DNA of 64,000 nt from Mesorhizobium sp. M9A.F.Ca.ET.002.03.1.2 (GTDB lineage: Bacteria; Pseudomonadota; Alphaproteobacteria; Rhizobiales; Rhizobiaceae), in NCBI RefSeq assembly GCF_003952365.1, contig NZ_CP034443.1, forward strand, positions 5,945,001 through 6,009,000, in the 5' to 3' direction. A program made the position numbers and the translations under genes. The notes under the pieces are model-generated. The model saw only the letters and a list, made by a program, of their open reading frames with translations. It did not search any database and was not told the DNA's origin. Shown piece by piece: positions 8,100 to 52,972 of this stretch (positions within the stretch are counted from its first letter, which is position 1; every line of letters begins with the position of its first letter).

Positions 8100-8105
8100 C
8101 AGCGC

Positions 8106-8957: not shown

Positions 8958-9028
8958 TGTTCCCAACTCCTTGCTTCTCTTCTTGGTTTGCTTTGGTCGA
9001 GACGGCTTTGCCGCCTCTGACATGACGG

Positions 9029-11901: not shown

Positions 11902-11958
11902 GGCCAATCGAAATTGCCAGATCGCACACCCAGGAGATTGGCCGAAACGTCCGTTACT

Positions 11959-12142: not shown

Positions 12143-12305
12143 AGCTGAGGAGGTTCAGCCAATCTCCACGGTAGGGCCAGAGAGATCGTCCGTTCCGGCA
12201 GCCCAATAGAGACAATCTTTCTACGCGCGGGCACTGAAACAGCCTCTCTGTCTGCACCGCGCGACTAGTCTCTCCGCATCGCCTCGACACCGGGAGACTT
12301 GATCG

Positions 12306-13799: not shown

Positions 13800-13835
13800 A
13801 ACCGCGCCCGACACTTTTCCTCAGGAGTAAAAAAA

Positions 13836-15215: not shown

Positions 15216-15222
15216 AACCGAC

Positions 15223-16323: not shown

Positions 16324-16429
16324 CGCCGGCAGACAGGACCATGGCAGGCTTGGGCTGTTCACCGATACGGTGAGGTCGAGCGCGACATGGCCTTGTGGCG
16401 CTCCAGCCTCTTCGTTCCGACGACCCCGA

Positions 16430-17806
16430 TCAGCTCTGTGATCCGACCTGCTTGCCGGCGGCTTCGAGCGATCTTTCAAACGCGTCGATCATCTGATCGA
16501 CCTGCGGCTCGGTGATGATCAGCGGCGGGCAGAAGGCCAGCGCATCGCCCATGTTGCGCGAGATGACGCCGTTCTGCTGCATGAAGCCGTTGACGAGCCC
16601 GCCCAGCGCGCCGACGTCGCCCCACGGCGTCTTGTTCGCCTTGTCGCCGACCAGTTCGACCGCCGCGATCAGGCCGACGCCGCGTACCTCGCCGACAAGC
16701 GGGTGCGAAGCAAGCTTGCGTAACCGCTTCTGCATATGCGCGCCGACCGTGCGCGCATTGCCGACAAGGTCGCGCTCCTCGATCAGCTTCAGGTTTTCGA
16801 ACGCGACCGCCGCCGCAACGGGATGGCCGCCGCCGGTGAAGCCGTGACCGAAGGTGCCGATTCGGTTGCTTTCGTCGGCAATCGGCTCGAACACTTTCTC
16901 GTTGATGAGGAGCGCCGAGATCGGCAGGTAGGAAGACGAGATTTGTTTGGAGAGCACCATGATGTCGGGCTTGATGCCGAAGGTCTGCGACCCGAACATC
17001 TCGCCTGTCCTGCCAAAGCCGCAGATGACCTCGTCGGCGACGAGCAGGATGCCGTATTTCGACAGCACCGCCTGGATCTTCTCCCAGTAGCCGGCCGGCG
17101 GCACGATGACGCCGCCAGCGCCCATGATCGGTTCGCCGAAGAAGGCGGCGATGGTTTCCGGGCCCTCGGCCAGGATCAGCTTTTCCAAGTCGTCGGCAAG
17201 CCGGCTCGAAAACTGCTGTTCGCTCTCGCCCGGCAGCGCCTCGCGCCAGTGGTGCGGCGTCGAAATGTGCAGCACATTGGCGATCGGCAGATCGAACGAA
17301 ATATGGTTGTTGGGCAGTCCAGTCAGGCTCGCCGCGGCGATGGTGACGCCGTGATAGCCGCGATTGCGGCTGATGATCTTCTTGCGTCCCGGCTGGCCGA
17401 GCGCATTCGACCGGTACCAGATCATCTTCATGGCCGTATCGTTGGCCTCGGAGCCGGAATTGGTGAAATACGCCTTGCTCATCGGCACCGGCGCCATCTG
17501 CACAAGCTTCTCGGCAAGATCGATCAGCGGCGAATGCGATTTGGAGCCGAAGTCGTGATAGTAAGGCAGCTTCGACATCTGGCGCACCGCCGCATCGACC
17601 AGCCGCTTCTCGGAAAAACCGACCGCGACGCTCCAAAGGCCCGCCATCGCCTCGATGTAGCGGTTACCGGCCAGATCCTCGACATAGATGCCGTCGCCCT
17701 TCTCGATGACGAGCGGCCCTGCCTCCTGATGCTTGCGGGCATTGGTGTAGCCATGCATGTGGTAGCTGATGTCGCGGGCTTCGGGAGAATTCGGGCGGGC
17801 GTCCAT
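16430..17806 (-). CDS. Class III aminotransferase (aspartate/omega-amino acid aminotransferase family)
   Basis: PLP fold-type I class III aminotransferase, 458 aa. PLP lysine in MVLSKQISSSYLPISALL, cofactor Asp in LLVADEVICGFGR, and the loop TNSGSEANDTAMKM are intact. It resembles beta-alanine/pyruvate and related omega-transaminases; the amino donor is not predictable from sequence. ATG 17806 (MDARPNSP) has CAGGAAC upstream, better than the longer 17920 reading. It converges with the MDR gene (106-nt gap, no convincing terminator) and is divergent from an FAD oxidoreductase. Confidence 0.85.
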   Translation of the reverse strand: MDARPNSPEARDISYHMHGYTNARKHQEAGPLVIEKGDGIYVEDLAGNRYIEAMAGLWSVAVGFSEKRLVDAAVRQMSKLPYYHDFGSKSHSPLIDLAEKLVQMAPVPMSKAYFTNSGSEANDTAMKMIWYRSNALGQPGRKKIISRNRGYHGVTIAAASLTGLPNNHISFDLPIANVLHISTPHHWREALPGESEQQFSSRLADDLEKLILAEGPETIAAFFGEPIMGAGGVIVPPAGYWEKIQAVLSKYGILLVADEVICGFGRTGEMFGSQTFGIKPDIMVLSKQISSSYLPISALLINEKVFEPIADESNRIGTFGHGFTGGGHPVAAAVAFENLKLIEERDLVGNARTVGAHMQKRLRKLASHPLVGEVRGVGLIAAVELVGDKANKTPWGDVGALGGLVNGFMQQNGVISRNMGDALAFCPPLIITEPQVDQMIDAFERSLEAAGKQVGSQS

Positions 17807-39264: not shown

Positions 39265-41643
39265 TCAATCCCCCGGCGCAATCACATTGTCGCGCCATGT
39301 GTCGGCGATGTGAGGGAAATCCAGAGGCTGGTTGTTGCCGAGCAGCAATTCCAGGACACGCGGCGGCGTCAACGGTATCTCCTGGACGCGGCGGCCGGTG
39401 GCGTTGGAAACGGCGCAGGCGATTGTCGCGGCGACGTTGAGGATCGGAACCTCGCCGGCCCCCTTCGTGCCCAGCGGCCCGATCGACGGCGCCCCTTCGT
39501 ACAGGCTGATCTCGACCGGTACGACATCCTGTGCAAGCGGCACCCGGTAGGTCTCCAGGCCGGCCTGGCAGATGCGGCCATTGCCGCCGATGGAGATCTC
39601 CTCATGCAAGGCATAACCCAGGCCCTGCACGACGCCGCCCTGTATCTGTCCGTAGATGGCGCGGGGATTGAGCGCCCGCCCGACATCCTGGACGACCGTA
39701 TAGCTCAACACCTCGACATGTCCGGTTTCGGGGTCGACGGCCACTTCGCAGTCATGCACCGCAAAGACCGGAATATCGATGGCGTCGATGAAGTGGCCGG
39801 CCGCGCAGCCCGGCATCGCCGCCACGCCAGGCCCGGTGAAGGCGCCGCTTCCCGAGATCGGACCTGTCACCCGTTGCGCGCGCTCGGCAACCTTCTCGAT
39901 CGTCGTTCCGGATCCCTTGATGCCAAGGATCTCGACGCGCCCGTTTTCGAGAACGAGATCCTCGGAGGAAGCCTCCAGCATGTCCGAGGCGACATGCAGC
40001 AGCTTCTTGCGGACCTCGACGGCGGCGGCAAGGCTGGCGGCGCCCAGCGAAACGGTCGTCCTGCCGCCGCCGACGCCGAGATCGAAACCGCCGGCATCCG
40101 TGTCGGCGGTGCGCACGACGACGTCTTGCGGCCGCAGGCCAAGCGTGCTGGCGACGATCTGCGGCAGCGACTGCATCATCGAGCCTGAGCCGATCTCGAC
40201 GCCGGAGGTCACCAGCGTCGCGCTGCCGTCCGGGTTGAGGTTGACCGTTGCCGCCGACGGACCGACAAAGATGAACCAAGTGCCGACCGTCGTGGCGCGC
40301 CCATACAGCCTCTCCCCCGCCAGATGTTTTTTCGACGGCTTGGCCTCGCGCAATTCGGCCATGCGATCGAGCATTGGCCTGAGAACATCGCCTTCGAACA
40401 CCTGCCCGGTCGCGCCAAGGTCCTTGTCGCCCAGCACATTGCGCCGGCGAAACTCCAGGGGTTCCATGCCGATGGCGGCGCAGATCTCATCCGTATGCCG
40501 CTCCAGCGCGAAGGTGTTGTAAACGCCGTTACAGGCCCGGAACGCACCGTTCGGCGCGGTGTTGGTGTAGATGGCGCGGGTCGAGATTTTCACCGAGCCG
40601 AGCCGGTAGTTGCCGCCCAGCGTGTGGGCGGTCATGGTCGTGAGAAAAATCTGTTCGCCGCCATAGGCGCCGCAATCCATCAGCACCACGGCCTCGCGCC
40701 CGACGATCTCGCCTTGCCTGGTCACGGCCGAGCGGATGCGGATCTCGGCGTTTTCGCGCGAGAGGCAGGTCAGCATCTCCTCCTCGCGTGAATTGACGAG
40801 CTTGACCGGCCTTCCTGCGGCGCGCGCCAGAAGCGCTGCGAAGGGCTCGAGCGAGCAGTCGAACTTGAGCCCGAATCCACCGCCAACCGCCGGCACGGTA
40901 ACCCGAACATGCGACGCTGGCACGCCGACAAGGCGCGCGGTGACGTTCCGGACGGTCCAGGGCACCTGCGTCGACGTCTCGATATGGAACCGCCCGTCTT
41001 CGTAGGAGGCGACGACGGCGCGCGGCTCGAAGGACAAATGGTTCTGCCGGCCGATCCGGAAGCAAGAGTCGACGATCTCGATATCGTCGCGTGCGAACGC
41101 CGCATCGGTGTCGCCGCGCACGACCGTTGCTTCCCAAGCCACGTTGCCGGCATGCGCGCCGCCTTCGAGCAGGACCTCGTAGTCCCGCCAATCGGGATGG
41201 ACCAGCGGCGCATCCGGCGCCAGCGCGTCCGCCATGGTGATCACCGCCGGCAATGGTTCCAGTTCGACGATGATCGCCGCGGCGGCGGCCTTGGCCTGCA
41301 CCAGGGTCTCGGCGGCGACGGCCGCGATCGGCTCGCCATCGTAGCGGATGCAGCCGGTCGCGAACAAGGAATGGTCGGCGATGCCTATGCCGTGGCGCGC
41401 GGGCGAATCCTCGGCCGTCACGATGGCGCGGACGCCGGGCATCTTGCGCGCCACTGACGTGTCGATGCGCAGGATCCGCGCCGACGCCACCTCGGCGCGC
41501 AGTTGCACGGCGTGAAGCATGCCGGGGCGTCCCTGATCGACGGTATAGCGCGTGCGACCCTGCAGCTTGTCGCGGGCATCGCGCCTCGGAAAGTCCATGG
41601 TCGCGGTTGAGGTGTCCGACATGCTTTTTGCCTCTGAACTCAT
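39265..41643 (-). CDS. Molybdenum hydroxylase large subunit (xanthine dehydrogenase/CoxL family)
   Basis: 792-aa catalytic subunit binding the molybdopterin cytosine dinucleotide cofactor. Landmarks: RYTVDQGRPGMLHA, YDGEPIAAVAA, the Mo-pterin motif AVGGGFGLKFD, GSGSMMQSLPQ and the C-terminal catalytic Glu in GTKGAGEVPI. The segment usually read GAFRGFGxPQ in aldehyde/xanthine enzymes is here NGAFRACNGVYNTFALE, so the pocket is non-standard. Such enzymes hydroxylate N-heterocycles, aldehydes or CO; the CO-type active-site Cys loop was not seen. ATG 41643 overlaps the [2Fe-2S] subunit stop (ATGA). Last gene of the operon. Confidence 0.9.
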   Translation of the reverse strand: MSSEAKSMSDTSTATMDFPRRDARDKLQGRTRYTVDQGRPGMLHAVQLRAEVASARILRIDTSVARKMPGVRAIVTAEDSPARHGIGIADHSLFATGCIRYDGEPIAAVAAETLVQAKAAAAAIIVELEPLPAVITMADALAPDAPLVHPDWRDYEVLLEGGAHAGNVAWEATVVRGDTDAAFARDDIEIVDSCFRIGRQNHLSFEPRAVVASYEDGRFHIETSTQVPWTVRNVTARLVGVPASHVRVTVPAVGGGFGLKFDCSLEPFAALLARAAGRPVKLVNSREEEMLTCLSRENAEIRIRSAVTRQGEIVGREAVVLMDCGAYGGEQIFLTTMTAHTLGGNYRLGSVKISTRAIYTNTAPNGAFRACNGVYNTFALERHTDEICAAIGMEPLEFRRRNVLGDKDLGATGQVFEGDVLRPMLDRMAELREAKPSKKHLAGERLYGRATTVGTWFIFVGPSAATVNLNPDGSATLVTSGVEIGSGSMMQSLPQIVASTLGLRPQDVVVRTADTDAGGFDLGVGGGRTTVSLGAASLAAAVEVRKKLLHVASDMLEASSEDLVLENGRVEILGIKGSGTTIEKVAERAQRVTGPISGSGAFTGPGVAAMPGCAAGHFIDAIDIPVFAVHDCEVAVDPETGHVEVLSYTVVQDVGRALNPRAIYGQIQGGVVQGLGYALHEEISIGGNGRICQAGLETYRVPLAQDVVPVEISLYEGAPSIGPLGTKGAGEVPILNVAATIACAVSNATGRRVQEIPLTPPRVLELLLGNNQPLDFPHIADTWRDNVIAPGD

Positions 41644-42098
41644 TCGGCCCGGACGACGGACAAGGCCGCGTCGACGATACGCTCATATCCGGTGCAGCGG
41701 CAGATATTCCCGGCAAGGGCGGCCTTTATGTCGTCGCGGCTTGGATTCGGCTCGCGCTCAAGAAAGCTGGTCAGGCTCATCAGCATACCGGGAAAGCACA
41801 TTCCGCATTGCACCGCGTCGTGCTGTTCCATCGCCTGCTGCAATGGCGAAAGAACGCCGTCCGTCGCCAGCGACTCGACCGTGCGCACCTCGCAATCCGC
41901 CGCCAGCCCCACGGGCACAAGGCAGGACATCACCGGGCGCCCGTCCAGCAACACGGTACAGGCGCCGCAGAAGCCTTCGCGGCAGACAATCTTCGCCCCA
42001 GTCAGATGGAATTCATCCCTCAGCACATCGACAAGCGGCGTCAGCGGCTCGGCGAGCGAAAACCGGTCTTCACCATTGACGTTGAGACGCAAGGACAT
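41640..42098 (-). CDS. Molybdenum hydroxylase [2Fe-2S] subunit (CoxS-like)
   Basis: 152 aa. Two [2Fe-2S] clusters: plant-ferredoxin type CREGFCGACTVLLDG with its distant Cys in MSCL, and the helical-domain type CGMCFPGM with CRCTGY. It relays electrons from the Mo centre to the FAD subunit. ATG 42098 lies 21 nt after the FAD-subunit stop; its own stop overlaps the large-subunit start. Confidence 0.93.
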   Translation of the reverse strand: MSLRLNVNGEDRFSLAEPLTPLVDVLRDEFHLTGAKIVCREGFCGACTVLLDGRPVMSCLVPVGLAADCEVRTVESLATDGVLSPLQQAMEQHDAVQCGMCFPGMLMSLTSFLEREPNPSRDDIKAALAGNICRCTGYERIVDAALSVVRAE

Positions 42099-42119
42099 CG
42101 GCTTGATCCCTTCTCGACT

Positions 42120-42980
42120 TCAGGACTGCTCTTGCAGGGCGACGACAGCGCGGCGCACCAGGCTCGGCAGAACTTTCACGCGATACCAGCCAGGCGCCTC
42201 GATGCCGTCGCGGCCCGAAAAATCGCCGCACAGGCGCTCGGCCTGCTCGGCGGCATAGCGCGGGTCGAGGGCACGGCCGACAAGACCTGCTTCGAGCTGC
42301 GTCCAGCGGCGCGCGGCCGGCTCGACCGAGCCGACTGCCACTCTGGCGCTTTCTACGAGGCCGGTCGGCCCCGGCGTGGCGGCCAGACTGACTGACGCCA
42401 CGGGATAATCTCCCGCCTTGCGCAGAGGCAGCCTTATATGCGCCGAGCGTCGCGTCGTGCGGGGGACAATCACGCGGCGGACCAGACAGCCGGGTACGAT
42501 GCCTGCCCTGATCTCCAGAAAACGCTCGACCGTCATCCGTTCGGACCCGCCTGGTCTTGCGATTTCGAGTTCGGCGTCGAGGCAAATCAGGGCGGGCACG
42601 AGATCCGCCGCCGCGAAGGCCGAAGCGCAGAGGTTTCCGCCAATCGTGGCGACATGGCGGACTGCCGGATTTGCGGAACTGCCGGCAGCCTGCGCCAGCG
42701 CGCTGCATTCGGGCGAGGATGCAAGCGCGTTCGCCAGTTCCGCATGGGTGACACAGGCTCCGATGCTGATCTCGTGATCGAGAACTTCGACGCGGCGCAA
42801 CTCGTCGATCCCTGAAATCGCCACATAGGACAGATCCTGCGGCTCGTGCCTGAGCGGAGCCCGCATGATCCAGGTCGCTCCGGCAAGCACGCTTGCTGCC
42901 CCTCCCCGCTCGGCAAGGGCGGCAAGCGCGTCGGCCAGCGACGTCGCCACATAGAGCCGCTCTCCATCTTGGCTGGACAC
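42120..42980 (-). CDS. Molybdenum hydroxylase FAD-binding subunit (CoxM-like)
   Basis: 286 aa. FAD motifs are AGATWIMRAPLRHEPQ, where AGGTDL is more usual, and TIGGNLCASAFAAADLVPAL. A CO dehydrogenase flavoprotein C-terminal domain follows. Completes the S-M-L trio, gene order M-S-L here. It lies 30 nt after bioY. Confidence 0.9.
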   Translation of the reverse strand: MSSQDGERLYVATSLADALAALAERGGAASVLAGATWIMRAPLRHEPQDLSYVAISGIDELRRVEVLDHEISIGACVTHAELANALASSPECSALAQAAGSSANPAVRHVATIGGNLCASAFAAADLVPALICLDAELEIARPGGSERMTVERFLEIRAGIVPGCLVRRVIVPRTTRRSAHIRLPLRKAGDYPVASVSLAATPGPTGLVESARVAVGSVEPAARRWTQLEAGLVGRALDPRYAAEQAERLCGDFSGRDGIEAPGWYRVKVLPSLVRRAVVALQEQS

Positions 42981-43010
42981 GCGAGAGGTCCTTCCTGCAG
43001 CAGGCCGATT

Positions 43011-43598
43011 TCAGCGATCGAGATGGCCGGCGAACTTCCACGCCAGCGGCAGCACTGCGGCGGCAAGTGCCAGCTTGAGCAGGTCGCCGAGGATGAACGG
43101 TGTGAGGCCCCAGGCAAGGATCGGCTTGTCCCATCCTAAGACGGCGCCCAGCCAGGAAAGCCCGAAGGCATAGATGACGACGGTCCCCAAAAGCATGGAA
43201 AGCGCCATGGTGACGATCCTGCGGTCCCAGCCACGCTTGGCGAGGAAACCGCAAAGCGCTGCGGCGGGCAGATAGCCGAGGAGGTAGCCGCCGGTCGGGC
43301 CGGCCATATAGGCGAGGCCGATGCCTTTTTCGGGCGTTCCGGCGAAAACCGGAAGCCCGAGCGCGCCTTCGGCGAGATAGAGCGCGATCGTCGCAGCGCC
43401 GAGGCGCCATCCGAAAGCCGTTCCGATCACTAGGACAACGAAGGTCTGCATGGTCATCGGCACCGGATAGAACGGCACCTGCAGCTTGGCCGACAGCCAC
43501 AGCGCCAGCGATCCGGCAATGGCCAGAACACCATTCCTGAGCGCCGTCCGGCCGGAAAAAGCCTGATCCGCAAGCACGGGATAGGTTGAGGAAAACAT
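43011..43598 (-). CDS. bioY: Biotin transporter BioY
   Basis: 195-aa S-component of the biotin ECF transporter family, about six helices, with VPFYPVPMTMQTFVVL and GPTGGYLLGYLPAA. Rhizobial BioY can work with BioMN or alone; no bioM or bioN is present here. Its place inside an operon with biotin carboxylase and a biotin carrier protein fits a local need for biotin. 33 nt after the permease gene. Confidence 0.92.
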   Translation of the reverse strand: MFSSTYPVLADQAFSGRTALRNGVLAIAGSLALWLSAKLQVPFYPVPMTMQTFVVLVIGTAFGWRLGAATIALYLAEGALGLPVFAGTPEKGIGLAYMAGPTGGYLLGYLPAAALCGFLAKRGWDRRIVTMALSMLLGTVVIYAFGLSWLGAVLGWDKPILAWGLTPFILGDLLKLALAAAVLPLAWKFAGHLDR

Positions 43599-43631
43599 GG
43601 GTCTTTCCTTTCGATTGTCGGGTTTGACTGG

Positions 43632-44672
43632 TCAGCTCTCGCCAACCAGCATGCGGTAGCGGAACTGGTCGAGGATGACGGCGAGCACCAGCAGCGAGCC
43701 AAGCAGCACCATCTGCATATACGAGCCGATCTGGGCGATGTTCATGCCGTTCTTCAGCAGCACGATGAAGAAGGCGCCGAGAACGACATTCTCCACACGC
43801 CCGAGCCCGCCTCGCAGGGAAACGCCGCCGATGACGCAGGCGGCGATCGATTCCAGCGCGATCGTGCCGCCGAGATTGCTTTCACCGGACTCGACGCGCG
43901 CCGTGAGCAGAAGGCCCGCGAGAGAGGCCAGCAGCGCGCACAGCACATAGGCCAGGAACAGCACCCGCTTGGTGTTGACGCCTGAAAGGTTGGCTGCCCT
44001 TACATTGCCGCCAACCGCGTAGATGTGAGAGCCGAGTTTCGTCCGGTTCATCACCAGCCAGATGGCAACGATTGCCAGCAAGGCGATCATCACCGGCACG
44101 GGGACGCCGAGCACCCGCCCGAAGCCGAAGAAATTGCCGAAATCATAGGGCAGCCCGGCCACGGGAACGCCGCCGGTCAGGAACAGCGCGATCCCCGCGC
44201 CGACCGACTGCACGCCAAGTGTCATGATGAACGGCGAGACATCGAACTGGGCGATGCCGAGCCCGTTCAGGCATCCGATCAGCAGCGCGGCGCCCAGGCC
44301 GGCGCCGGCGCCAAGCAGGATCACCAGCCAGATCATATCAGGCATCAGCGGCGCCAGCGCGACCATCGCCAGCGCCGACACGACCGAGGTCATGGCGATT
44401 GCCGTGCCGACCGACAGGTCGAAGCCTCCGGTGATGAGAACCAGCATCTGCCCCAGCGAGACGAGGACCAGATAGACCGACTGCCTGGCGACATTGGTGA
44501 GGTTCTGGATCGACAGGAACTGGTTCGAGATCAGTGAAAAGACGATCAGCGAAACGACGAGGAAAAACGGCAGCACCCCGACGCGCAGGAACACCGACTT
44601 GATGGCTGCCAGCAGGATGGCGGGGCCGCGTGGCGCCTCTGCATCCCCGGCTTGGCTGCTCTGAATGGTCAT
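43632..44672 (-). CDS. ABC transporter permease (RbsC-like)
   Basis: 346 aa, BPD_transp_2 family, about ten membrane segments. Coupling loop GGNVRAANLSGVNTKRVLFL and the channel segment GQMLVLITGGFDLSVGTAIA are clear. ATG 44672 overlaps the ATPase stop (ATGA). It is the channel of the importer in this operon. Confidence 0.9.
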   Translation of the reverse strand: MTIQSSQAGDAEAPRGPAILLAAIKSVFLRVGVLPFFLVVSLIVFSLISNQFLSIQNLTNVARQSVYLVLVSLGQMLVLITGGFDLSVGTAIAMTSVVSALAMVALAPLMPDMIWLVILLGAGAGLGAALLIGCLNGLGIAQFDVSPFIMTLGVQSVGAGIALFLTGGVPVAGLPYDFGNFFGFGRVLGVPVPVMIALLAIVAIWLVMNRTKLGSHIYAVGGNVRAANLSGVNTKRVLFLAYVLCALLASLAGLLLTARVESGESNLGGTIALESIAACVIGGVSLRGGLGRVENVVLGAFFIVLLKNGMNIAQIGSYMQMVLLGSLLVLAVILDQFRYRMLVGES

Positions 44673-46186
44673 GATTGGATCCCCGTCTCCGCAAAGAAAT
44701 GTTTCAGCACATTCTCCTCCGCGATCTCGGCGCCGGTGAGTTCGGCCGACACCCTGCCCTTCGAGAAAACCAGCAGGCGGTGCGCAAGGTTCATCACCTC
44801 CGGCAGGTCGGAAGAGATCACCACCACCGCCTTGCCGGCCTCGGCGATCTCCTTGATCAGCCGGTAGAGCGCGGCGCGCGTGCCCATGTCGACGCCGACT
44901 GTCGGCTCGTCGAAGATGTAGATGTCCCGCTCCTCGCCAAATCCCTTGCCGAACAGCACCTTCTGCTGGTTGCCGCCTGAAAGCTTCGAGACAATCCGGC
45001 CCATATGGCCCGAGGCAATGCCGACGCGTTCGCCGATCTTGTCGGCCAAAGCCTTGATGCGGCGCGGCGCAACGAAGCCGAAGCGGCCCGCCGTATCGAC
45101 ACGGCCAAGCAGGCTGAGCTTGATGTTTTCGCGCGCTGTCGCCGCCAGTTGCAGGCCCTCGCTCTTGCGGTCCGGCGGCAGGTAGTAGACGCCGCCTCGC
45201 AGCATATGCCTTGTCGCCGCATGGGTCACGTCGCGCCCGTTCAGCGTGACCGTCCCGGCCCGGATCGGCTGCAGTCCAAGCACGCTGCGCCAGATCCGCG
45301 ACTTGCCGCTTCCGACCAGGCCGGCAATGCCAAGAACCTCGCCGGCGCGCACATCGATATCGACGCCGTGGAAGCCGGCGCCATGCATCTGGCGCAGTGT
45401 CATCAGTGTCCGGCCATCGCTCTGGCGGCCGATCTCAGGATAGATCTGGTCGATCGCCCGGCCGGTCATCAGCTCGACCAGCGCCTTCTCCGACGTGTCG
45501 CGCGCCGACACCGTGCCGATCAGCCGGCCGTCGCGAAGCACGCTGATATTGTCGGCGATCTCGCGGAATTCCTGGATGCGATGCGAGATGTAGATGATGC
45601 CGACGCCGTCGGCCTTCGCCTTGGCGATGAACGCGAAGAGCTTGCGCGTCTCCTTCTCGGTGAGCGAGGCGGTCGGCTCGTCGAGGATCAGGACCTGCGC
45701 CTTGGCCAGGAACACCTTGGCGATCTCCACCATCTGCTGCTCGGCGCGCGACAGGGTGGAAACGCGGCGGCGGATGTCGATCTCGAAGCCCAGATCCCGA
45801 AACAGCTTGCGCGCGCCCTCGACCATGGCGCGCCGGTCGGTCAAGGGACCGCGCTTGAGCTCGCGGCCGAGATAGACGTTCTCGAAAACGCGCAATGTCG
45901 GGATCAGCGAGAATTCCTGGAACACCGTGCCGATGCCATGTTTGGCAGCGTCGTGCACGGAGCGCAGATCGGCCTCTTCGCCATCGATCCGCAAAGACCC
46001 CGATGTCGGCCTGTAAAGGCCGGAGAGGATCGAGATCAGCGTCGACTTTCCGGCGCCGTTCTCGCCGAACAGCACATGAACCTCGCCGCGCTCAAGCGTG
46101 AAATCGACGCCGTCGAGCGCCTTGACGCCGGGAAACTCCTTCGAGATCCGGGTCATTTCCACGAGCGGTGGGTTTGTGTCGTCCAT
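44669..46186 (-). CDS. ABC transporter ATP-binding protein (RbsA-like, two NBDs)
   Basis: 505 aa. NBD1: Walker A GENGAGKSTL, signature LSRAEQQMVEIAKVF, Walker B LILDEPTASL. NBD2: GLVGSGKSRIWRSVLGL, signature LSGGNQQKVLFGKGF and IYIFDEPTVGVD. All catalytic blocks look intact, unlike the adjacent binding-protein gene. ATG 46186 (MDDTNPPL) is chosen over a longer reading that runs into the intergenic element. Confidence 0.9.
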   Translation of the reverse strand: MDDTNPPLVEMTRISKEFPGVKALDGVDFTLERGEVHVLFGENGAGKSTLISILSGLYRPTSGSLRIDGEEADLRSVHDAAKHGIGTVFQEFSLIPTLRVFENVYLGRELKRGPLTDRRAMVEGARKLFRDLGFEIDIRRRVSTLSRAEQQMVEIAKVFLAKAQVLILDEPTASLTEKETRKLFAFIAKAKADGVGIIYISHRIQEFREIADNISVLRDGRLIGTVSARDTSEKALVELMTGRAIDQIYPEIGRQSDGRTLMTLRQMHGAGFHGVDIDVRAGEVLGIAGLVGSGKSRIWRSVLGLQPIRAGTVTLNGRDVTHAATRHMLRGGVYYLPPDRKSEGLQLAATARENIKLSLLGRVDTAGRFGFVAPRRIKALADKIGERVGIASGHMGRIVSKLSGGNQQKVLFGKGFGEERDIYIFDEPTVGVDMGTRAALYRLIKEIAEAGKAVVVISSDLPEVMNLAHRLLVFSKGRVSAELTGAEIAEENVLKHFFAETGIQS

Positions 46187-46206
46187 TTTTGCCTGGGATC
46201 CAGAGC

Positions 46207-46244
46207 AACCGGTTTTTGGGAAAATCCGATGCTCAAACAAAAGA
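46207..46244. repeat. Intergenic element copy (AACCGGTTTT...CCGATGCTCAAACAAAA)
   Basis: AACCGGTTTTTGGGAAAATC then CGATGCTCAAACAAAAG. Nearly the same sequence occurs at 52937-52972 and 60234-60294. It sits in the gap between the broken binding-protein gene and the ATPase gene. Confidence 0.7.
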
Positions 46245-46292
46245 CCGGTCCGGTCCCGCCTTGCCTGGCGGGACCGAAACGGAACGTCGCGT

Positions 46293-47346
46293 TCAGTTCA
46301 CGTTGAAGACCGGCTTGTAGCCATCCGGCGGCAGGATGTTCGTCGGCGAAACGTCGTTGATGTTGGACGGATCCACGACAAAGATCTTCGGGCCGACATG
46401 CTTGACGTAATCCTTGCCTTCCAGGATGCGCACGGCCTGATCCACGGCAATGCGGCCCTGGATGACCATCGAGTCGGCCGGCGAAGCGAGGATGAAACCG
46501 CGCTTGATACCCTCGTAGACGCCGGGCGTCATGTAGAACGAGAGCAGATCGACCTGGCCTTGCAGGCCGCGCTCGCGAATGATGCCCTGCGCCGCCTCCG
46601 CCGTCACTGCGGTGCCGGCGATGTAGCGGATGTTCGGATTGGCCTGCAGCGCGTCCTCGACCAGCTTGAGCTGCACTTCCTTGCCGGTGTCGCCGAACTT
46701 CGGCTCCAGCACCTTGACCGCGGAACCCTTGACGGCGGCGAGGAAGCCTTCGTTAGCCGCGCTCACCCAGCCGGCGCCCGCCGGTCCGGGGAACCAGCCC
46801 ACCTCGACCTCGTCGCTGCCAGCCGGATGCTTCTTGGCGAGATAGGCGCCGGCTTCCGAACCCATCGTATAGAACGACACCAGCGACTTCGCCGAAATAT
46901 CCGGCGACGAGATGCCGTTGATGACGTCGATCACCGGATGTCCTTCTTGCGGACTTCCGAGACGAGGTTGTTGAGGCGTCGGCGGAACGATGCGACCGAG
47001 CCGCCGATGCGACGCAATCCTCGATCTGCGAAATCTGCTTGTCGAGCTCCGTATAGCCGCCGGCCTCGGACAGGTTCATCTTGACGCCGAGCCGCTTGGC
47101 CTCCTCGGCAACGCCGTAGTCGACGCCGAGCCAATAGGCGTCCTTCATGTGCGGAAACGAGACGCAGATGTTCCAGGGCTTCGTCGCCTTGTCGAGCGGC
47201 TCGTAGGTGACATCAACCGACTTGCCGTCGGCGGCAAAGGCCGGCTCGATCTTGGCGGCGTCGTAGGGATACCAGTCGGCGGCGTAGGCGGCGCCGGCAA
47301 CTAGGGTTGCCGCCGTTGCAAGCATCATTTTTCCGAGATTTCTCAT
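46293..47346 (-). pseudogene. ABC transporter periplasmic binding protein (TorT/RbsB-like), frameshifted
   Basis: The 5' part (ATG 47346, ribosome site AAAGGGGAA) encodes a signal peptide ending AAYAADW and a binding-protein N-domain up to TELDKQISQIEDCVAS. The frame then breaks near 46985-47012. A middle piece in a second frame reads RLNNLVSEVRKKDI. After a further break near 46936, consistent with one lost C, the rest continues in a third frame as IDVINGISSPDISAKSLVSF to the stop at 46293. The three pieces together would make one type I binding protein of about 345 aa, TorT-like. Either a true pseudogene or two sequencing errors. Confidence 0.8.
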
Positions 47347-47433
47347 GCCATTCCCCTTTCTTGTTATCGGCCGCCGTCTTCCGGACGGTTCGGCCGCACT
47401 TACCCAAATGCCAGTTGCCCAAATGCCCAAATG

Positions 47434-48405
47434 TCAGTCGAAAACGCTCCTGATCCTGTCGAGCAATGCTGCCCGGTCGGCGCGGGCTTTCAGCGCGCCG
47501 TCCATGTCGACCTTGACGAAAGATGTCGGTGTGTTCGGCTGCAATTGGCCGATCAGATCCATGTCGGCCGAGACGACGGTGCCGACCATGAAGTAGCCGC
47601 CGCCCGAGACCGCATCGCGATGCAGGATGATCGGCTCGGTGCCGCCCGGCACCTGGATCGAGCCGTAGGGGTAGCAACTGTCGACGATGTTCGATGGATC
47701 CGAGCCGGCCCCGAAGGGCTGGTCGCGCTCGACGAATTGCAACGGCCGGCCGCCGCGAAATCGGTAGCCCATGCGGTCGGCCTCGGGCGCCACCTTCCAC
47801 TGGTCGTCGAAGAAGTTCCGGTGCGTCTCCTCGGTGACACGGTGCCAATAGAGACCCGGCAGAACCCGCAGTTCGGCCGGCATTCCCGGCCGCCGGCGCA
47901 GCGCTTCCGGAATGCTGCGCCCTTCCTTGCCGGCGGCGGCGGTGCCGACCGGCAGCTCGTCGTCCTTGGCGATGGCGCGGCCCTTGAAGCCGCCCAGCGC
48001 GCCGATCGGGTAAGTCGAGCGGCTGCCGAGCGCGATCGGCACGTCGATGCCGCCGGCGATCGCGATGTAGATGCGCGCGCCGGTCTTAAGGAAACCGAAG
48101 CTCAGCACCTGGCCTGCCCTTACCTTCAGCGCGGTCCAGGACGGCTGTTCCTCGCCGTCGAGCTTTATCGGCATGTCGGCGCCGGTGACCGCGATTAGCG
48201 CGTCGCGGGTGAATTCGAGATGCGGCCCGATGAACACCGCCTCGAGGCCGGCCGCTCCCTCGTCATTGCCGACGATCAGGTTGGCGGCGCGCAGCGCCAG
48301 CCGGTCCATGGCGCCGCCGATCGGGATGCCGAGATGAAAATAGCCCGGACGGCCAAGATCCTGAACCGTGGTCGAAAGCCCCGGATTGAGTACCTTAACG
48401 GCCAT
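47434..48405 (-). CDS. pxpC: PxpC-like biotin-dependent carboxyltransferase subunit (5-oxoprolinase/urea amidolyase family)
   Basis: 323 aa, carboxyltransferase subdomain family (KipA/PxpC; urea carboxylase C-part). Landmarks: VLNPGLSTTVQDLGRPGYFH, PIGGAMDRLALRAANLIVGN and the late PGGTEPIILHRDAVSGGGYF. With PxpB it forms the carboxyltransferase half that acts on a lactam or urea-like substrate. ATG 48405 overlaps the pxpB end by 11 nt. The symbol gives the family; the true substrate may not be 5-oxoproline. Confidence 0.85.
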   Translation of the reverse strand: MAVKVLNPGLSTTVQDLGRPGYFHLGIPIGGAMDRLALRAANLIVGNDEGAAGLEAVFIGPHLEFTRDALIAVTGADMPIKLDGEEQPSWTALKVRAGQVLSFGFLKTGARIYIAIAGGIDVPIALGSRSTYPIGALGGFKGRAIAKDDELPVGTAAAGKEGRSIPEALRRRPGMPAELRVLPGLYWHRVTEETHRNFFDDQWKVAPEADRMGYRFRGGRPLQFVERDQPFGAGSDPSNIVDSCYPYGSIQVPGGTEPIILHRDAVSGGGYFMVGTVVSADMDLIGQLQPNTPTSFVKVDMDGALKARADRAALLDRIRSVFD

Positions 48406-49270
48406 TGATCATGCCCTCCAGCCTGGCGTTGTAGCCGTCGATGTCCTTCTGGAATTCGCGCAGGTCGAAGGTGACGTCGCTGATTGCCGGCGCGAACCGG
48501 CCGGCGGCGACGTCCTCGACCGTATGGTCGTATTCTTCGCGCCCGATCGGCTTGAACTTGACGATGTCGCCGGGACGGAAGAACACCATGAAATCGCGGA
48601 GGTAGCTGGTCTTCTGCTCCGGATCGAAGATCGGCATCGGCGTGATGCCGAACATCTGGTAGCCACCGGCGCCGCGCACCGAATAGATGCAGGAAAAGCA
48701 GCCGCCATAGCCGATGGTGAGCTTGGGCGTATCGGTGCGGGGCCTGAGGTATTTCGGCACCTGGATCTGCCGTGGCCGGTCGACCATCTGGTACATGAAG
48801 GGCAGCCCGGCGACGAAGCCGACCATCGACACGAACCAGGGCGACCCGGCATGGGCAGCGATGAAGTCGTCGACCGTCGAATAGTTATTGATCCGGGCGG
48901 CATATTCGAGATCGGTGGCCTTCGGATCCTGGTGCCGCTCGCGAAAACGCATCAGCGTCTCGTGCGTCCAGGGATCCTGGTAGAACACCGGAATTTCGAT
49001 GATCCTCGTTGCGATCACCGGATCGGTTTTACTGGCCGCGCTTTCAATCGCCTGCACTTCGCGCAGCATGTCGTCGGGCCGGATGATGTCGGGATTGAAC
49101 TTGATCTGAAACGAGGCGTTGGCCGGGCATATCTCGGTGACGCCCTTGATCTGGCTGTCGCGCACGGCGTTGGTCATCGACAGGCTTTTGAAAAACGCCT
49201 CCAGCGACATGCTCTCGTCGCACTCGACGAAGAGATGCTCGTCGCCTCCGAATGAATAGCGGTTTTGCAT
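48395..49270 (-). CDS. pxpB: PxpB-like carboxyltransferase subunit (KipI/allophanate hydrolase subunit 1 family)
   Basis: 291 aa. Usual family blocks: SPWFVSMVGFVAGLPFMYQM, IGYGGCFSCIYSVRGAGGYQ and FRPGDIVKFKPI. About 60 residues longer at the N-terminus than short PxpB proteins, as in urea-amidolyase-type versions. ATG 49270 overlaps the biotin carboxylase stop by one base (TGATG). Expected to pair with PxpC. Confidence 0.85.
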   Translation of the reverse strand: MQNRYSFGGDEHLFVECDESMSLEAFFKSLSMTNAVRDSQIKGVTEICPANASFQIKFNPDIIRPDDMLREVQAIESAASKTDPVIATRIIEIPVFYQDPWTHETLMRFRERHQDPKATDLEYAARINNYSTVDDFIAAHAGSPWFVSMVGFVAGLPFMYQMVDRPRQIQVPKYLRPRTDTPKLTIGYGGCFSCIYSVRGAGGYQMFGITPMPIFDPEQKTSYLRDFMVFFRPGDIVKFKPIGREEYDHTVEDVAAGRFAPAISDVTFDLREFQKDIDGYNARLEGMINGR

Positions 49271-50655
49271 CAGGCCACCTCTCTCGTGCCGCTTGGTGGG
49301 GCGGCGAATTTCGTTTCCAGCCAGTTCTCGAGAAAACGCGTGTGGAAGCGCCCGGCCGCCACGTCGGCATCGGCAGCGAGCGCCTGATGCAGCGGCACGG
49401 TCGTCGGAATGCCTGATATGCCGAGGCCGGCCAGCGCCGTGCGCAGCTTCGCCAGGCAGGCGGCGCGATCGGCGCCATGCACGATCAGCTTTCCCAGCAG
49501 CGAATCGTAGAACGGCGGCACCGCGTAGCCGGCAAACAGCATGGTGTCGAAACGGATGCCCTCGCCTTCCGGCACGGCAAGCGTGTCCACCGTGCCCGGG
49601 CCGGGCATGAAACCCCTGTGCGGATCCTCGGCGTTGATCCGGCACTCGATGGCGTGGCCGGCAATGGCGATATCGTCCTGGCTGACCGACAAGGGCTGAC
49701 CGCCGGCGATGCGCAGCATCTCCTGGACGAGATCGAGCCCGGTGATCATCTCCGTCACCGGATGCTCGACCTGGATGCGGGTGTTGACCTCGATGAAATA
49801 GAAATCGCGGCTGGCGTCGTCGTAAAGATACTCGACCGTACCGGCGCCGCTGTAGCCGACCGAGCGCGCCAGGGCGACGGCGCTGTCACACAGTCGTTTG
49901 CGGACCTCGGCCGGCAGTCCGGCCGCCGGGGCTTCCTCCCAGACCTTCTGCCGGCGTCGTTGCAGCGAGCACTCGCGCTCGTAGCAATGGACGAAATTCG
50001 TGCCGTCGCCGAGGATCTGCACCTCGATATGACGCGCCTTCTCGATCACCTTCTCGATGTAGAGGCCGCCATCGCCGAAAGCCGCCGCGGCCTCAGCCGA
50101 AGCCTGCGGGAAATGACGCTCGAATTCCTCGAGGCCGTGGGCGATGCGGATGCCTCTGCCGCCGCCGCCGGCCGCCGCCTTGATCATCACGGGAAAGCCG
50201 ATGCGCGAGACGATCGCCGCCGCCTCGGCGAGGTCGCAGACGCGCCCGTCGCTGCCCGGCACCGTCGGCACGCCGGCCCTGGCCGCGACCTGGCGCGCCG
50301 CGACCTTGTCGCCGAGCAGCCGGATCGCCGCTGCGTTCGGCCCGACAAACTTCATTCCCGCCGCAGCTACCGCTTCGGCGAAGTCGGCATTCTCCGACAG
50401 GAAGCCGTAGCCGGGATGGATGGCATCGACCTTCGCCGCCTTAGCCGCCGCGAGCACCGCCTCGATGTTGAGATAGGATTTCTTCGCCGCGGCCGGGCCT
50501 ATGTCGATCGCCTCGTCGGCGAGCTTCACCGCCAGCGAGCCGGCATCGGCCTGGCTGTGCACCTGCACGGTCCGCAGCCCCAGGGCTTTCGCCGCGCGGA
50601 TGATCCGCACCGCGATCTCGCCCCGATTGGCCACCAGGACGGAATGGATGGTCAT
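49270..50655 (-). CDS. Biotin carboxylase (AccC-like)
   Basis: 461 aa ATP-grasp enzyme that carboxylates biotin on its carrier protein using bicarbonate and ATP. N-domain VLVANRGEIAVRIIRAAKAL, glycine-rich ATP loop KAAAGGGGRGIRI, and active-site segments HIEVQILGDG, CSLQRRRQKVWEEAP and EVNTRIQVEHPVTEM are all present. It lies between the biotin carrier and the PxpBC genes rather than beside a fatty-acid gene, so a dedicated copy for this pathway is likely. ATGA overlap with the carrier gene. Confidence 0.92.
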   Translation of the reverse strand: MTIHSVLVANRGEIAVRIIRAAKALGLRTVQVHSQADAGSLAVKLADEAIDIGPAAAKKSYLNIEAVLAAAKAAKVDAIHPGYGFLSENADFAEAVAAAGMKFVGPNAAAIRLLGDKVAARQVAARAGVPTVPGSDGRVCDLAEAAAIVSRIGFPVMIKAAAGGGGRGIRIAHGLEEFERHFPQASAEAAAAFGDGGLYIEKVIEKARHIEVQILGDGTNFVHCYERECSLQRRRQKVWEEAPAAGLPAEVRKRLCDSAVALARSVGYSGAGTVEYLYDDASRDFYFIEVNTRIQVEHPVTEMITGLDLVQEMLRIAGGQPLSVSQDDIAIAGHAIECRINAEDPHRGFMPGPGTVDTLAVPEGEGIRFDTMLFAGYAVPPFYDSLLGKLIVHGADRAACLAKLRTALAGLGISGIPTTVPLHQALAADADVAAGRFHTRFLENWLETKFAAPPSGTREVA

Positions 50656-50894
50656 GCCTCGACCTCGGCAAGCGCCTGGCCGGCCATCACCGCGTCGGCG
50701 TCGTCGACAAGGAAGCGGATCGCGTTGCCGTCGACGCCGGCCGTCACTTCATGGAACGACTTCATCACCTCGACGATGCCGATCACGTCGGCCGCGGAGA
50801 CAGTGTCGCCATCGTTCTTGAACGGCGCGCTTTCGGGCGACGGCCTGCGGTAGAACATGCCTGGCAGCGGCGACTTGATTTCGGCTTTGCTCAT
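50652..50894 (-). CDS. Stand-alone biotin carboxyl carrier protein (80 aa)
   Basis: Short biotinyl domain with the Pro/Gly turn [14 protein letters not shown] and the biotinylation site VEVMKSF, Lys45. The canonical site is EAMKM; Val before Met and Ser after Lys are variants seen in some accessory carriers. It lacks the long N-terminal linker of AccB, so it consists of the carrier domain alone. ATG 50894 overlaps the pxpA stop (ATGA); its stop overlaps the biotin carboxylase start. Confidence 0.88.
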
Positions 50895-51697
50895 TTGGAA
50901 CCCCTCGCGGCTTGGGCCTGTTGTGTGGGCACTTCCGACACCGGCGCGATCCGGATCCCGTTCGCGACCAGGGCGGAACGCATGGCGCCGGCGATTTTCA
51001 GGCAACCCGGCGTATCGGAATGGAAGCAGATCGACTCGAAGCCGATGTCGATATCGGCGCCGTCGACGGTGCGGACCTTGCCCTCGAGACAGGCGCGCAC
51101 GACCTTGTCGGCGATTGCGGCCGGATCGAGCTTGCCGACATGGCGCGTGAACACGATCGAACCGGAGCGATCATAGTCCCGGTCGGCGTAGAACTCCCTG
51201 ATGACCGGCTGGCCGGCCTCGGTGGCGATCCGATAGGTCTCCGACATCCCCATGCAGAAGACGAAGGCGTTTGGCGCGACGGTGCGCATCAGCCTGACGA
51301 AGGATCGCGACAGCGCCTCGTTGGCGGCGAGTTCCATGTAGAGCGCGCCGTGCGGCTTGACGTGCTGCAAATTGGCGCCGTGACGGCGTGCGAATTCGCG
51401 CAGCGCGCCGATCTGGTAGACGATGTCGTTGATGATCTCGTCGTCATTGCCGTTGATCTTGCGGCGGCCGAAGCCTTGCAGGTCCCGGTAGCCCGGATGC
51501 ACGCCGATGCCGACGCCGTGCTGGGTCGCAAGCCGTACCGTGGCGTCCATCAGGTTGGGATCGCCAGCATGGAAACCGGCGGCGATGTTGGCGGAGCTGA
51601 TCAGCTCCATCAGCCTGGCATCGTCGGTCTCGCTCAGCCGCCATTGGCCGAACGCCTCACCCATATCGCAATTGATGTCGACAATCGTGACCGGCAC
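50891..51697 (-). CDS. pxpA: PxpA-like 5-oxoprolinase subunit (LamB/YcsF family)
   Basis: 268 aa. N-terminal [44 protein letters not shown] and [11 protein letters not shown] are the conserved metal/substrate blocks of the YcsF family. In the PxpABC 5-oxoprolinase this subunit hydrolyses the carboxylated ring. Start is GTG 51697 with GGGAG upstream; the longer reading from 51883 would cross the divergent promoter region. First gene of the 12-gene leftward operon. Confidence 0.9.
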
Positions 51698-51793: not shown

Positions 51794-51948
51794 ATTCTCA
51801 GAATTTGACATTCTGATTTTCAGATACCTGTTTTGGATGGCGCTGGAGCGGAAAGTGCAGAATACCGCCAGAAACACGGGCACGCTGTGCGATCAAAAAA
51901 AGCAACGGCTGCACAAAGAAGTTGCGCGTATCGTATTTTCAGAAAATA
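51794..51948. promoter_or_regulatory. Palindromes in the LysR / pxpA divergent control region
   Basis: ATTCTCAGAAT at 51794-51804 has perfect 5-bp arms around a central C. TATTTTCAGAAAATA at 51934-51948 has perfect 7-bp arms around one base. The word ATTTTCAGA also recurs at 51816-51824. These AT-rich palindromes are in a 289-bp spacer between divergent starts, as expected for LysR-type binding and activation sites. Binding is inference. Confidence 0.4.
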
Positions 51949-51986
51949 AGAGCCGGCTGTCTCAGAGAAACAGAAGGCTTCCTCAG

Positions 51987-52892
51987 GTGTCGATCAGCCT
52001 GCGTCAAATCCGCTATTTCGTCTCTACCGCCGAGCAGGGCCAGATTTCGCAAGCGGCGGTCGACCTCGCCATTTCGCAGTCGGCGATCACGACGGCGATC
52101 AAGGAGCTGGAGCGCGTGATCGGCGCCGACCTGTTTGTCCGCTCCCCCCAAGGCATGGAACTCACGGCGGCGGGGCGCCAGTTCCTGTTCCACGCCTACG
52201 ACATCCTCAACAAGGTGCAGGAAGCGACCAGCCTGAACGTGCCGGCCAACGATCTCGAGGGCAGCCTCACGGTCGCCGCGACCTATACGGTGATCGGCTA
52301 TTTCCTGCCCAACCATCTGGAGAAGCTGAAGCGCAATTTTCCGAAGCTCGACATCCAGCTTTTCGAGCTCAACCGCGAGGCGATCGAGGAGGGTCTTCTG
52401 TCCAACCGGTATGACATCGCCGTCCTGCTCACCTCGAACGTGCTCAATCCGGATCTCTCGACCGAAACGCTGCTGGGCTCGCGACGCCGGCTCTGGGTCG
52501 CCTCCAAGCATCACCTCCTGCAGCGGGAATCCGTCGGCCTGAAGGAGATTTCGCAAGAACCCTACATCATGCTGACCGTCGATGAGGCGGCGCACACCTC
52601 GCTGAAATACTGGAGCAAGACGCCCTATCAGCCCTCCGTCACGCTGCGCACATCGTCCGTCGAGGCGGTGCGTTCGATGGTTGCCAACGGACAGGGCGTC
52701 GCAATTCTCTCGGACATGGTCCTGCGGCCATGGTCGCTGGAAGGCAAGCGCATCGAAACCCTGGTCCCAAGCGACCCTATCCCGGCGATGGATGTCGGCC
52801 TGGCCTGGCGGCGCAATGCCCAATTCACCCCTGCCATGGAGGCGTTCCGTTCCTATTTCAGGCAGACGTTCTATATTCCGAACAGTCGCTAA
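51987..52892 (+). CDS. LysR-family transcriptional regulator (divergent from the pxpA operon)
   Basis: 301 aa from GTG 51987, the normal LysR length; a longer ATG reading from 51837 would extend through the palindromes. Helix-turn-helix QISQAAVDLAISQSAITTAI near residues 20-40, followed by a periplasmic-binding-like effector domain (EGSLTVAATYTVIGYFLPNH). Likely activator of the pxpA-to-Mo-hydroxylase operon, responding to its substrate. The last 112 bp of this gene are duplicated at 57055-57166. Confidence 0.88.
   Translation: MSISLRQIRYFVSTAEQGQISQAAVDLAISQSAITTAIKELERVIGADLFVRSPQGMELTAAGRQFLFHAYDILNKVQEATSLNVPANDLEGSLTVAATYTVIGYFLPNHLEKLKRNFPKLDIQLFELNREAIEEGLLSNRYDIAVLLTSNVLNPDLSTETLLGSRRRLWVASKHHLLQRESVGLKEISQEPYIMLTVDEAAHTSLKYWSKTPYQPSVTLRTSSVEAVRSMVANGQGVAILSDMVLRPWSLEGKRIETLVPSDPIPAMDVGLAWRRNAQFTPAMEAFRSYFRQTFYIPNSR
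52781..52892 (+). repeat. Direct repeat, left copy (3' end of the LysR gene)
   Basis: 112 bp, in frame within the LysR gene and including its stop codon. The right copy is at 57055-57166 and differs at three positions only, all third codon positions (AAT/AAC, CAA/CAG, TTC/TTT), leaving the encoded residues unchanged. Confidence 0.9.
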
Positions 52893-52936: not shown

Positions 52937-52972
52937 ACCGGTTTTGGGAAAATCCGATGCTCGAACAAAAAG
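52937..52972. repeat. Intergenic element copy overlapping the start of the AraC gene
   Basis: ACCGGTTTTGGGAAAATCCG then ATGCTCGAACAAAAAG. Matches the copies at 46207-46244 and 60234-60294. The ATG of the downstream AraC reading frame is inside this element. Confidence 0.7.

Follow-up and report, generated by a model that had tools for sequence, protein, structure and literature searches.

A recurrent biotin-linked gene block and a partner molybdenum hydroxylase in Mesorhizobium suggest a route for the oxidation and opening of small nitrogen-ring compounds

A stretch of 64,000 nucleotides (nt) from Mesorhizobium sp. M9A.F.Ca.ET.002.03.1.2 (the window; positions 5,945,001 to 6,009,000 of a 6.4-Mb single-contig genome) carries twelve collinear genes on the minus strand, from 51697 to 39265, as defined by open reading frames (ORFs) and by Pfam and NCBIfam assignment. 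They link a PxpA-type hydrolase, a biotin carrier, a biotin carboxylase and two carboxyltransferase-like proteins with an ATP-binding cassette (ABC) transporter, BioY and the three subunits of a molybdenum (Mo) hydroxylase. In our judgement the chances are about even that this operon encodes an inducible catabolic pathway, which would import a small nitrogen-ring compound, oxidise it to a lactam and open the lactam in a biotin-driven reaction. More tentatively, and at somewhat below even chances, we propose a novel oxidative route for cyclic imines or N-heterocycles, assembled several times, in which a Mo hydroxylase makes the lactam and interchangeable ATP-dependent openers act on it, one of them being a biotin-dependent N-carboxylating system that works with PxpA and recycles bicarbonate. 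An earlier note on this DNA (the original prediction) had given the same number, direction and coordinates of the genes, and the Pfam and NCBIfam models agree with its gene names; its observation was right, and its interpretation is partly supported, being right in outline and corrected here in detail.

The five genes at the head of the run form a core that recurs in other genomes. In a scan of GTDB representative genomes, the best 80 of 495 PxpB relatives were taken as core loci (given below by their L numbers), the nearest PxpB proteins being from Mesorhizobium. The genes for PxpA, biotin carrier, biotin carboxylase, PxpB and PxpC are complete, collinear and adjacent in 78 of these 80 loci, so the grouping is not due to chance; the two exceptions, L042 and L094, are cut by contig ends. 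A LysR-type regulator (ORF 51837–52892, plus strand, the true start probably lying inside it) stands divergently at the head of the operon, as had been predicted, and a homologue is found in 77 of the 80 loci, divergent in those listed. In a phylum sample of 398 genomes, PxpB (E ≤ 1e-50) was found in 16, own genome included, and 13 of the 15 non-own loci contain the biotin carboxylase. A Mo hydroxylase accompanies the core in 11 of the 80 loci (window-type CoxL in ten, another type in one) and was not found in the remaining 69 within the retrieved stretches, about a dozen of which are incomplete. The core therefore has a job of its own, and the Mo hydroxylase is an extension. The single twelve-gene system of the original prediction thus stands for the recurring core block, but not for the Mo hydroxylase, which is accessory.

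The Mo hydroxylase consists of a CoxM-type flavin adenine dinucleotide (FAD) subunit (42120–42980, minus strand, GTG start; PF00941 and PF03450), a CoxS-type 2Fe-2S subunit (41640–42098, minus; PF01799 and PF00111) and a CoxL-type Mo-binding subunit of 792 amino acids (39265–41643, minus; PF02738 with 224 bits, PF20256 with 198 bits and PF01315 with 77 bits). Its Mo-cofactor domains, active-site glutamate and 2Fe-2S and FAD subunits place it in the xanthine oxidase family. The glutamate (Glu731 of CoxL, in a GAGE motif) is kept in all 59 aligned copies, which include paralogues, and the nine cysteines of CoxS follow the usual pattern of two 2Fe-2S sites. No NCBIfam equivalog cut-off was reached by this Mo hydroxylase. 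An assignment to CO dehydrogenase (CoxMSL proper) was rejected, the score with TIGR02416 being 268 bits at a cut-off of 991.

Orthologues of CoxL, own included, are present in nine of 297 genomes of the order (E ≤ 1e-220), in four of 385 genomes of the class (E ≤ 1e-200) and in four of 31 relatives (searched to 1e-50). They stand at 68–82% identity and form one fully supported clade, the next paralogues in the 31 genomes reaching at most 38%. The first CoxL tree omitted L035 (79% identical CoxL; length filter) as well as L001, L002, L112–L120, L129–L131 and L177 (duplicates or short copies). We compared 14 non-own orthologue neighbourhoods of approximately 19 kb each, from ten genus codes, eight of them with a lactam opener, with 20 paralogue loci that were hand-picked down the list, 13 of which come from one genus and two from the own genome. 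An ATP-dependent lactam or hydantoin opener lies in 12 of the 14 orthologue neighbourhoods vs 3 of the 20 paralogue neighbourhoods (one-sided Fisher p = 5.7e-5, the rows not being independent), and pxpB/C in six vs none. The original prediction had named the co-occurrence of the core, bioY and coxMSL-like genes as its check, and the result is positive.

The openers near CoxL are of different kinds. Biotin-core genes occur in L122, L123, L124, L126, L138 and L140, and in the genome of L127 the biotin core lies approximately 8 kb beyond coxL (L145). HyuAB is found in L121, L122, L127, L128, L141 and L142, and L137 has a CapA that passes the caprolactamase model. The names HyuAB and CapA come from family models in L127, L040 and L137, and in all other loci from tblastn matches to the proteins of these three. 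Along the CoxL tree, at least four changes of partner (biotin module, HyuAB or CapA) are seen. For this count L122 and L127, which also have a biotin module nearby, were assigned to their adjacent HyuAB, and L125 and L139 were left aside; including them raises the number to six. Of the 24 inner branches, only 10 were starred. The association of this Mo hydroxylase with lactam openers is non-random and has been re-formed repeatedly, and such repetition speaks more strongly for joint function than one operon would. Furthermore, a large subunit of another Mo-hydroxylase clade, 28% identical to the CoxL of the window, directly follows bioY of the core operon in L039 (16302–18674) and L167 (5637–7979); neither an FAD nor an iron-sulphur subunit was detected in the retrieved stretch of these two loci. 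One clade near alternating lactam openers and a second clade after bioY support an order in which the substrate would be oxidised to a lactam and then opened. Among the Mesorhizobium loci, L034–L036 match the window at 91–99% identity in the core and at 60–79% in the cox genes; with L140 included, coxMSL ranges from 60 to 81% and the core again from 91 to 99%. The transporter and bioY are 91–96% identical in L035 and 77–88% in L034 and L036. It looks as if the oxidase cassette, alone or with the preceding genes, has been exchanged in place.

The same neighbourhoods bear on two alternatives, each of which we regard as unlikely. The Mo hydroxylase might be a downstream or side enzyme, for example for semialdehyde oxidation, while the imported compound is already a lactam. 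With no Mo hydroxylase found in 69 of the 80 core loci, an imported lactam suffices there, and CoxL also matches aldehyde-oxidising members of its family. However, this one clade of Mo hydroxylases is retained beside lactam openers of unrelated kinds, which argues against a side role, if not decisively, and semialdehydes are usually handled by aldehyde dehydrogenases. Improbable to a similar degree is a pathway for hydantoins, cyclic ureides or imides, in which the Mo hydroxylase would make a hydantoin-type ring, HyuAB or the biotin module would open it and the product would be a carbamoyl amino acid. HyuAB beside CoxL in 6 of the 14 orthologue loci is consistent with such a pathway, as are the NCS1 permeases in 6 of the 80 core loci, which we take to be of the nucleobase/hydantoin type; the one scanned scored 40 bits with TIGR00800 at a cut-off of 353. 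In contrast, the CapA proteins of L040 and of L137, the latter beside CoxL, pass the caprolactamase model, the best model for HyuA of L127 is also CapA, though far below the cut-off (515 vs 1000 bits), and no N-carbamoyl amino acid hydrolase was found among the few neighbours scanned.

As for the core proteins, PxpA (50891–51697, minus, GTG start, 268 amino acids; PF03746 with 290 bits) belongs to the LamB/YcsF family of ring-opening hydrolases. It passes the subfamily model NF003814 (288 bits, cut-off 226), reaches none of the three PxpA equivalog models, and its eight conserved His, Asp and Glu residues are kept in all but one of 129–130 aligned copies. The biotin carrier (50652–50894, minus, 80 amino acids; PF00364; NF005457 with 123 bits, cut-off 87) has the acceptor motif VMKS, whose lysine, K45, is lysine in 129 of 129 aligned copies. 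The biotin carboxylase (49270–50655, minus, 461 amino acids; NF009471 with 766 bits, cut-off 686) is matched by solved biotin carboxylases over approximately 440 amino acids.

The two carboxyltransferase subunits proved to be the part of the original prediction most in need of correction, since their assignment to a PxpABC 5-oxoprolinase was not borne out. The PxpB-like protein (CT_C_D, 48395–49270, minus, 291 amino acids; PF02682) scored 117 bits with the urea carboxylase model TIGR02712 vs 68 bits with the PxpB equivalog TIGR00370, whose cut-off of 145.55 was not reached. For the PxpC-like protein (CT_A_B, 47434–48405, minus, 323 amino acids; PF02626 with 295 bits) the scores were 239 bits with TIGR02712 vs 213 bits with the PxpC model NF045499 (cut-off 500, not reached); it passes TIGR00724, the general domain model for 5-oxoprolinase and urea amidolyase (255 bits, cut-off 230). 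Far below the 5-oxoprolinase cut-offs and nearer to urea carboxylase, the pair is therefore by sequence a carboxyltransferase and not part of a PxpABC 5-oxoprolinase. TIGR02712 matched four separate proteins with 517, 239, 117 and 20 bits, below its cut-off of 1303.85, which is set for the fused protein. K173 of PxpB aligns with K1605 of the Kluyveromyces lactis urea amidolyase, which is described as most likely the essential general base of carboxyl transfer (PMC5770610). All 135 aligned copies, a number that counts duplicates and the copy of the window, have lysine at this position; among the four alignments shown, both KipI-type chains have an arginine there. The urea-carboxylase-like set is thus complete, with a biotin carboxylase, a carrier lysine and a urea-type carboxyltransferase with its catalytic lysine. 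A structure model of PxpC, built from six alignment rows (mean predicted local distance difference test score, pLDDT, 53), found the folds of KlUA, KlUC, YbgJK, Msmeg0435-0436 and TTHA0988, which merely repeats the sequence result. Together, PxpB, PxpC and the biotin genes are best read, from their sequences, as a split biotin-dependent lactam carboxylase with PxpA as the ring-opening hydrolase. Family models call parts of the block acetyl-coenzyme A (CoA) carboxylase and 5-oxoprolinase subunits; an acetyl-CoA carboxylase was rejected, there being no CoA-type carboxyltransferase among the operon proteins.

On these data we consider it quite improbable that the Pxp proteins open 5-oxoproline or another lactam without biotin, as PxpABC does, with the biotin genes serving another reaction and the Mo hydroxylase unrelated. 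This would agree with the PxpA subfamily score, with PxpA being the only LamB/YcsF protein of its genome, with the acetyl-CoA-carboxylase-type models passed by the carrier and carboxylase, and with two loci, L172 and L174, that carry the set without biotin genes. On the other hand, PxpB and PxpC fall far short of their models and are outscored by urea carboxylase, the urea-carboxylase lysine is kept, all 78 complete loci have the carrier and carboxylase genes placed between pxpA and pxpB, and a second biotin carboxylase at position 5084334 of the genome, 54% identical, is likely to be the housekeeping AccC. That the block is a split carboxylase for urea or guanidine, to which the shared domain set and lysine might point, is highly improbable given that no allophanate hydrolase or amidase is found among the operon proteins, the hydrolase being of the LamB/YcsF type, and that the neighbours include lactam and gamma-aminobutyrate (GABA) genes.

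From the gene content, its conservation, the family memberships and the conserved catalytic residues, all observed, we infer a biotin-dependent chemistry, an order of steps and a substrate as follows. The RbsABC/TorT-type ABC transporter would take up a small nitrogen-ring compound, and the Mo hydroxylase would turn a cyclic imine or N-heterocycle into a lactam by adding oxygen beside its ring nitrogen. The biotin carboxylase would load the carrier biotin with CO2 at the expense of ATP and bicarbonate, and the PxpB/PxpC-like carboxyltransferase would pass the carboxyl group on to the nitrogen of the lactam, in the way that urea carboxylase carboxylates urea. PxpA could then hydrolyse the weakened amide, and the resulting N-carboxy amino acid would lose CO2 to give an omega-amino acid. 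In sum, ATP would drive ring opening and bicarbonate would be regenerated, a lactam being handled on the same principle as urea by urea amidolyase, while BioY would supply the biotin. The outline of hydroxylation to a lactam, carboxylation and opening by PxpA had been part of the original prediction and is supported by family membership and co-occurrence; what had to be changed is that PxpBC is not a 5-oxoprolinase and that the core is independent.

The likeliest lactam would be 2-pyrrolidinone, made from 1-pyrroline and opened to GABA, or its six-ring homologue. Oxidation of 1-pyrroline or a relative fits the known chemistry of the Mo hydroxylase family. In L044, the permease gene is followed, on the same strand, by genes for a GABA transaminase (827 bits at a cut-off of 724) and a succinate semialdehyde dehydrogenase (SSADH; 720 bits at a cut-off of 646), which overlap by 4 nt. 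Copies of the transaminase at least 50% identical to that of L044 occur in L052 and L104, and SSADH-like genes in L104 and three loci of Agrobacterium vitis; another SSADH-like gene, in L145, scored 580 bits, below the cut-off of 646. The GABA transaminase of the own genome (852 bits) lies far from the operon. A control of 20 loci, with one transaminase match of 32% and no SSADH, is too small to judge an enrichment of GABA genes. In L127, a relative from the same genus, one run (5694–17511) comprises in one direction genes for AraC, HyuA, HyuB, coxM, coxS, coxL, a PxpA-like protein, a class-III aminotransferase (PRK06105, 727 bits, cut-off 517) and a small protein; it represents a second pathway of the lactam type in this genus, distinct from the first. 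Genes of the CapA type whose products share 60% identity or more with the L040 protein, which passes the caprolactamase model, are found in the core loci L040, L041, L043, L058, L062, L064, L085, L088 and L095, so that two unrelated lactam openers lie close together in nine shared loci; HyuA is found in one of the 80. The neighbours and the fungal lam genes suggest a gamma- or delta-lactam that is converted to an omega-amino acid, 2-pyrrolidinone to GABA being the simplest case. The imported N-heterocycle of the original prediction need not be aromatic, and the neighbours favour a simple gamma- or delta-lactam.

Several observations weigh against the proposed pathway. Few loci have GABA-type genes next to the core (the transaminase in 3 of 80, SSADH in 5 of 80, three of which are A. 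vitis strains). L125 and L139, two of the 14 CoxL neighbourhoods, have no lactam opener, and paralogous Mo hydroxylases stand beside HyuAB in 3 of the 20 controls (L156, L160 and L161), so that pairing an oxidase with an ATP-dependent ring opener may be common more generally. The Mo hydroxylase could also act after ring opening or on an aldehyde. L029, found via its biotin carboxylase, has no pxpA in its 4.4-kb stretch. In L172 (8680–12341) and L174 (7490–11176), both from one genus, the genes for LysR, PxpA, PxpB and PxpC are adjacent, of the same clade and 57–67% identical, neither a biotin carboxylase nor a carrier gene lying among or next to the pxp genes; this set either relies on a housekeeping carboxylase or works without biotin. 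Gene content therefore does not prove biotin dependence, likely as it is. Finally, in the PDB entry 9yx5, chains of KipI/KipA type, named 'allophanate hydrolase', appear alongside the alpha-3 subunit of a biotin-dependent acyl-CoA carboxylase, and an arginine at the position of K173 may therefore not exclude biotin dependence, so the lysine may be a weaker marker of biotin than it looks. The entry was not among the fold-search rows for the PxpC model. It also hints that other KipI/KipA pairs may work with biotin.

The overlaps of ATGA type or of 1–11 nt in the original prediction hold for 6 of the 11 junctions (4, 4, 1, 11, 4 and 4 nt), but the other five have gaps of 87, 106, 33, 30 and 21 nt, and the overlaps are therefore confined to the pxpA–pxpC block, the ATPase–permease pair and coxS–coxL. 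In the 106-nt gap between the binding-protein and ATPase genes lies a terminator-like hairpin (46249–46278, minus strand) with 12 pairs, 9 of them G-C, and a T-rich tail, one of 17 such sites compared with 10.3 expected in shuffles. The distal genes may therefore differ in transcription level, the hairpin possibly setting unequal expression within the operon. A sigma-70 scan gave no site, with 2.2 expected in shuffles, and is therefore uninformative on the status as a single operon. The same gap holds one copy (46221–46242) of a 22-base repeat with one position free, which has exactly four copies genome-wide, two of them within the operon region, the other being just after LysR (52949–52970).

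The transporter genes, all on the minus strand, encode a TorT-like ABC binding protein (46293–47346; PF13407; C-terminal part NF008185 with 269 bits, cut-off 200), an ABC ATPase with the two ABC domains of the ribose/sugar RbsA layout (44669–46186; PF00005 in two stretches) and an ABC permease (43632–44672; PF02653), for which the best NCBIfam models, those of MglC, allose and RbsC permeases, all stayed below cut-off. A transporter of this RbsABC type is found in 30 of the 80 core loci. L048, L061 and 29 others, 31 loci by the count of its permease, have in its place a putrescine-type ABC system with short-chain dehydrogenases. In the window the binding-protein gene is broken, as had been predicted: its pieces lie in three frames between approximately 46993 and 46937, with closely spaced lesions, outside of which it shares 96–98% identity with its uninterrupted counterpart in L032. 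In almost every other relative the alignment runs through in a single frame; L101 needs two, and some loci are cut. The break is either a sequencing or assembly fault or a very recent loss; if it is real, uptake would be impaired in this strain.

BioY, the S component of a biotin transporter (43011–43598, minus; PF02632 with 141 bits, cut-off 25), is found in 10 of the 80 core loci, both with and without a Mo hydroxylase, and the own genome has two copies, including that of the operon, as well as bioB (412 bits). BioY is therefore an extra supply and no proof of auxotrophy, and the genome need not depend on the copy in the operon. The role as biotin supplier in the original prediction can be kept in this sense, but not as a sign of auxotrophy.

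If the block N-carboxylates lactams, these would be a new class of biotin-carboxylase substrates beside acyl-CoAs, pyruvate, urea and guanidine, and the block a possible tool for pyrrolidone and nylon-type lactams. The interchangeable pairing also makes the question of substrates for orphan Mo hydroxylases directly testable, by looking for lactams. To a specialist the parts are individually unsurprising; within the open-access literature covered, the new element is the recurrent biotin module with its repeated Mo hydroxylase pairing, and no description of this gene set was found there among the matches listed.

Among known systems, the lam genes of Aspergillus nidulans, whose lamB gives the PxpA family its Pfam name, resemble the operon by description: here a biotin carboxylase and urea-type carboxyltransferase share one locus with a LamB/YcsF hydrolase, in 78 of 80 loci. 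We take the product of lamA to be the protein P38095, with carboxylase, carboxyltransferase and carrier in one chain, and lamA and lamB both to be needed for the use of 2-pyrrolidinone; that this pairing of a carboxylase with LamB/YcsF defines the fungal system is in part our assumption. Unlike the fungal set, that of the operon is split into four proteins and extended by an ABC transporter, BioY and a Mo hydroxylase. The gene lamB, to which YcsF is related, is described as a gene for the utilisation of lactams such as 2-pyrrolidinone (PMC3412718), and the A. nidulans 'urea carboxylase' P38095 as a protein of 1,241 amino acids that has no amidase domain (PMC3073912). With urea carboxylase and urea amidolyase the operon shares the biotin carboxylase, CT_A_B and CT_C_D, the carrier and the catalytic lysine, but it differs from urea amidolyase in having four separate proteins and a LamB/YcsF hydrolase instead of allophanate hydrolase. 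PxpA-, PxpB- and PxpC-like proteins in one operon recall the PxpABC 5-oxoprolinase, whereas the B and C proteins stay below the equivalog cut-offs and a biotin carboxylase and carrier are inserted, though not in L172 and L174.

The proposed ATP-driven opening of a lactam-type ring is shared with the caprolactamase CapAB and the HyuAB hydantoinases, for which we know of no biotin carrier. CapA-type genes occur in 9 of the 80 core loci, and HyuA/B or CapA in 7 of the 14 CoxL loci; neither CapAB nor HyuAB is present in the operon of the window. According to the caprolactamase paper, these enzymes form a protein family separate from the opener of the operon, and a bicarbonate-dependent activation of lactams is discussed for this unrelated enzyme (PMC8453981). 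The Mo hydroxylase has the domains and subunit layout of 4-hydroxybenzoyl-CoA reductase, 6-hydroxypseudooxynicotine dehydrogenase, quinoline 2-oxidoreductase and nicotinate dehydrogenase, but its CoxL falls in a clade separate from the named Mo hydroxylases of the xanthine oxidase family. For the carboxyltransferase, the PDB entry 9yx5 offers a possible structural precedent of KipI/KipA-type chains combined with a biotin carboxylase/carrier subunit.

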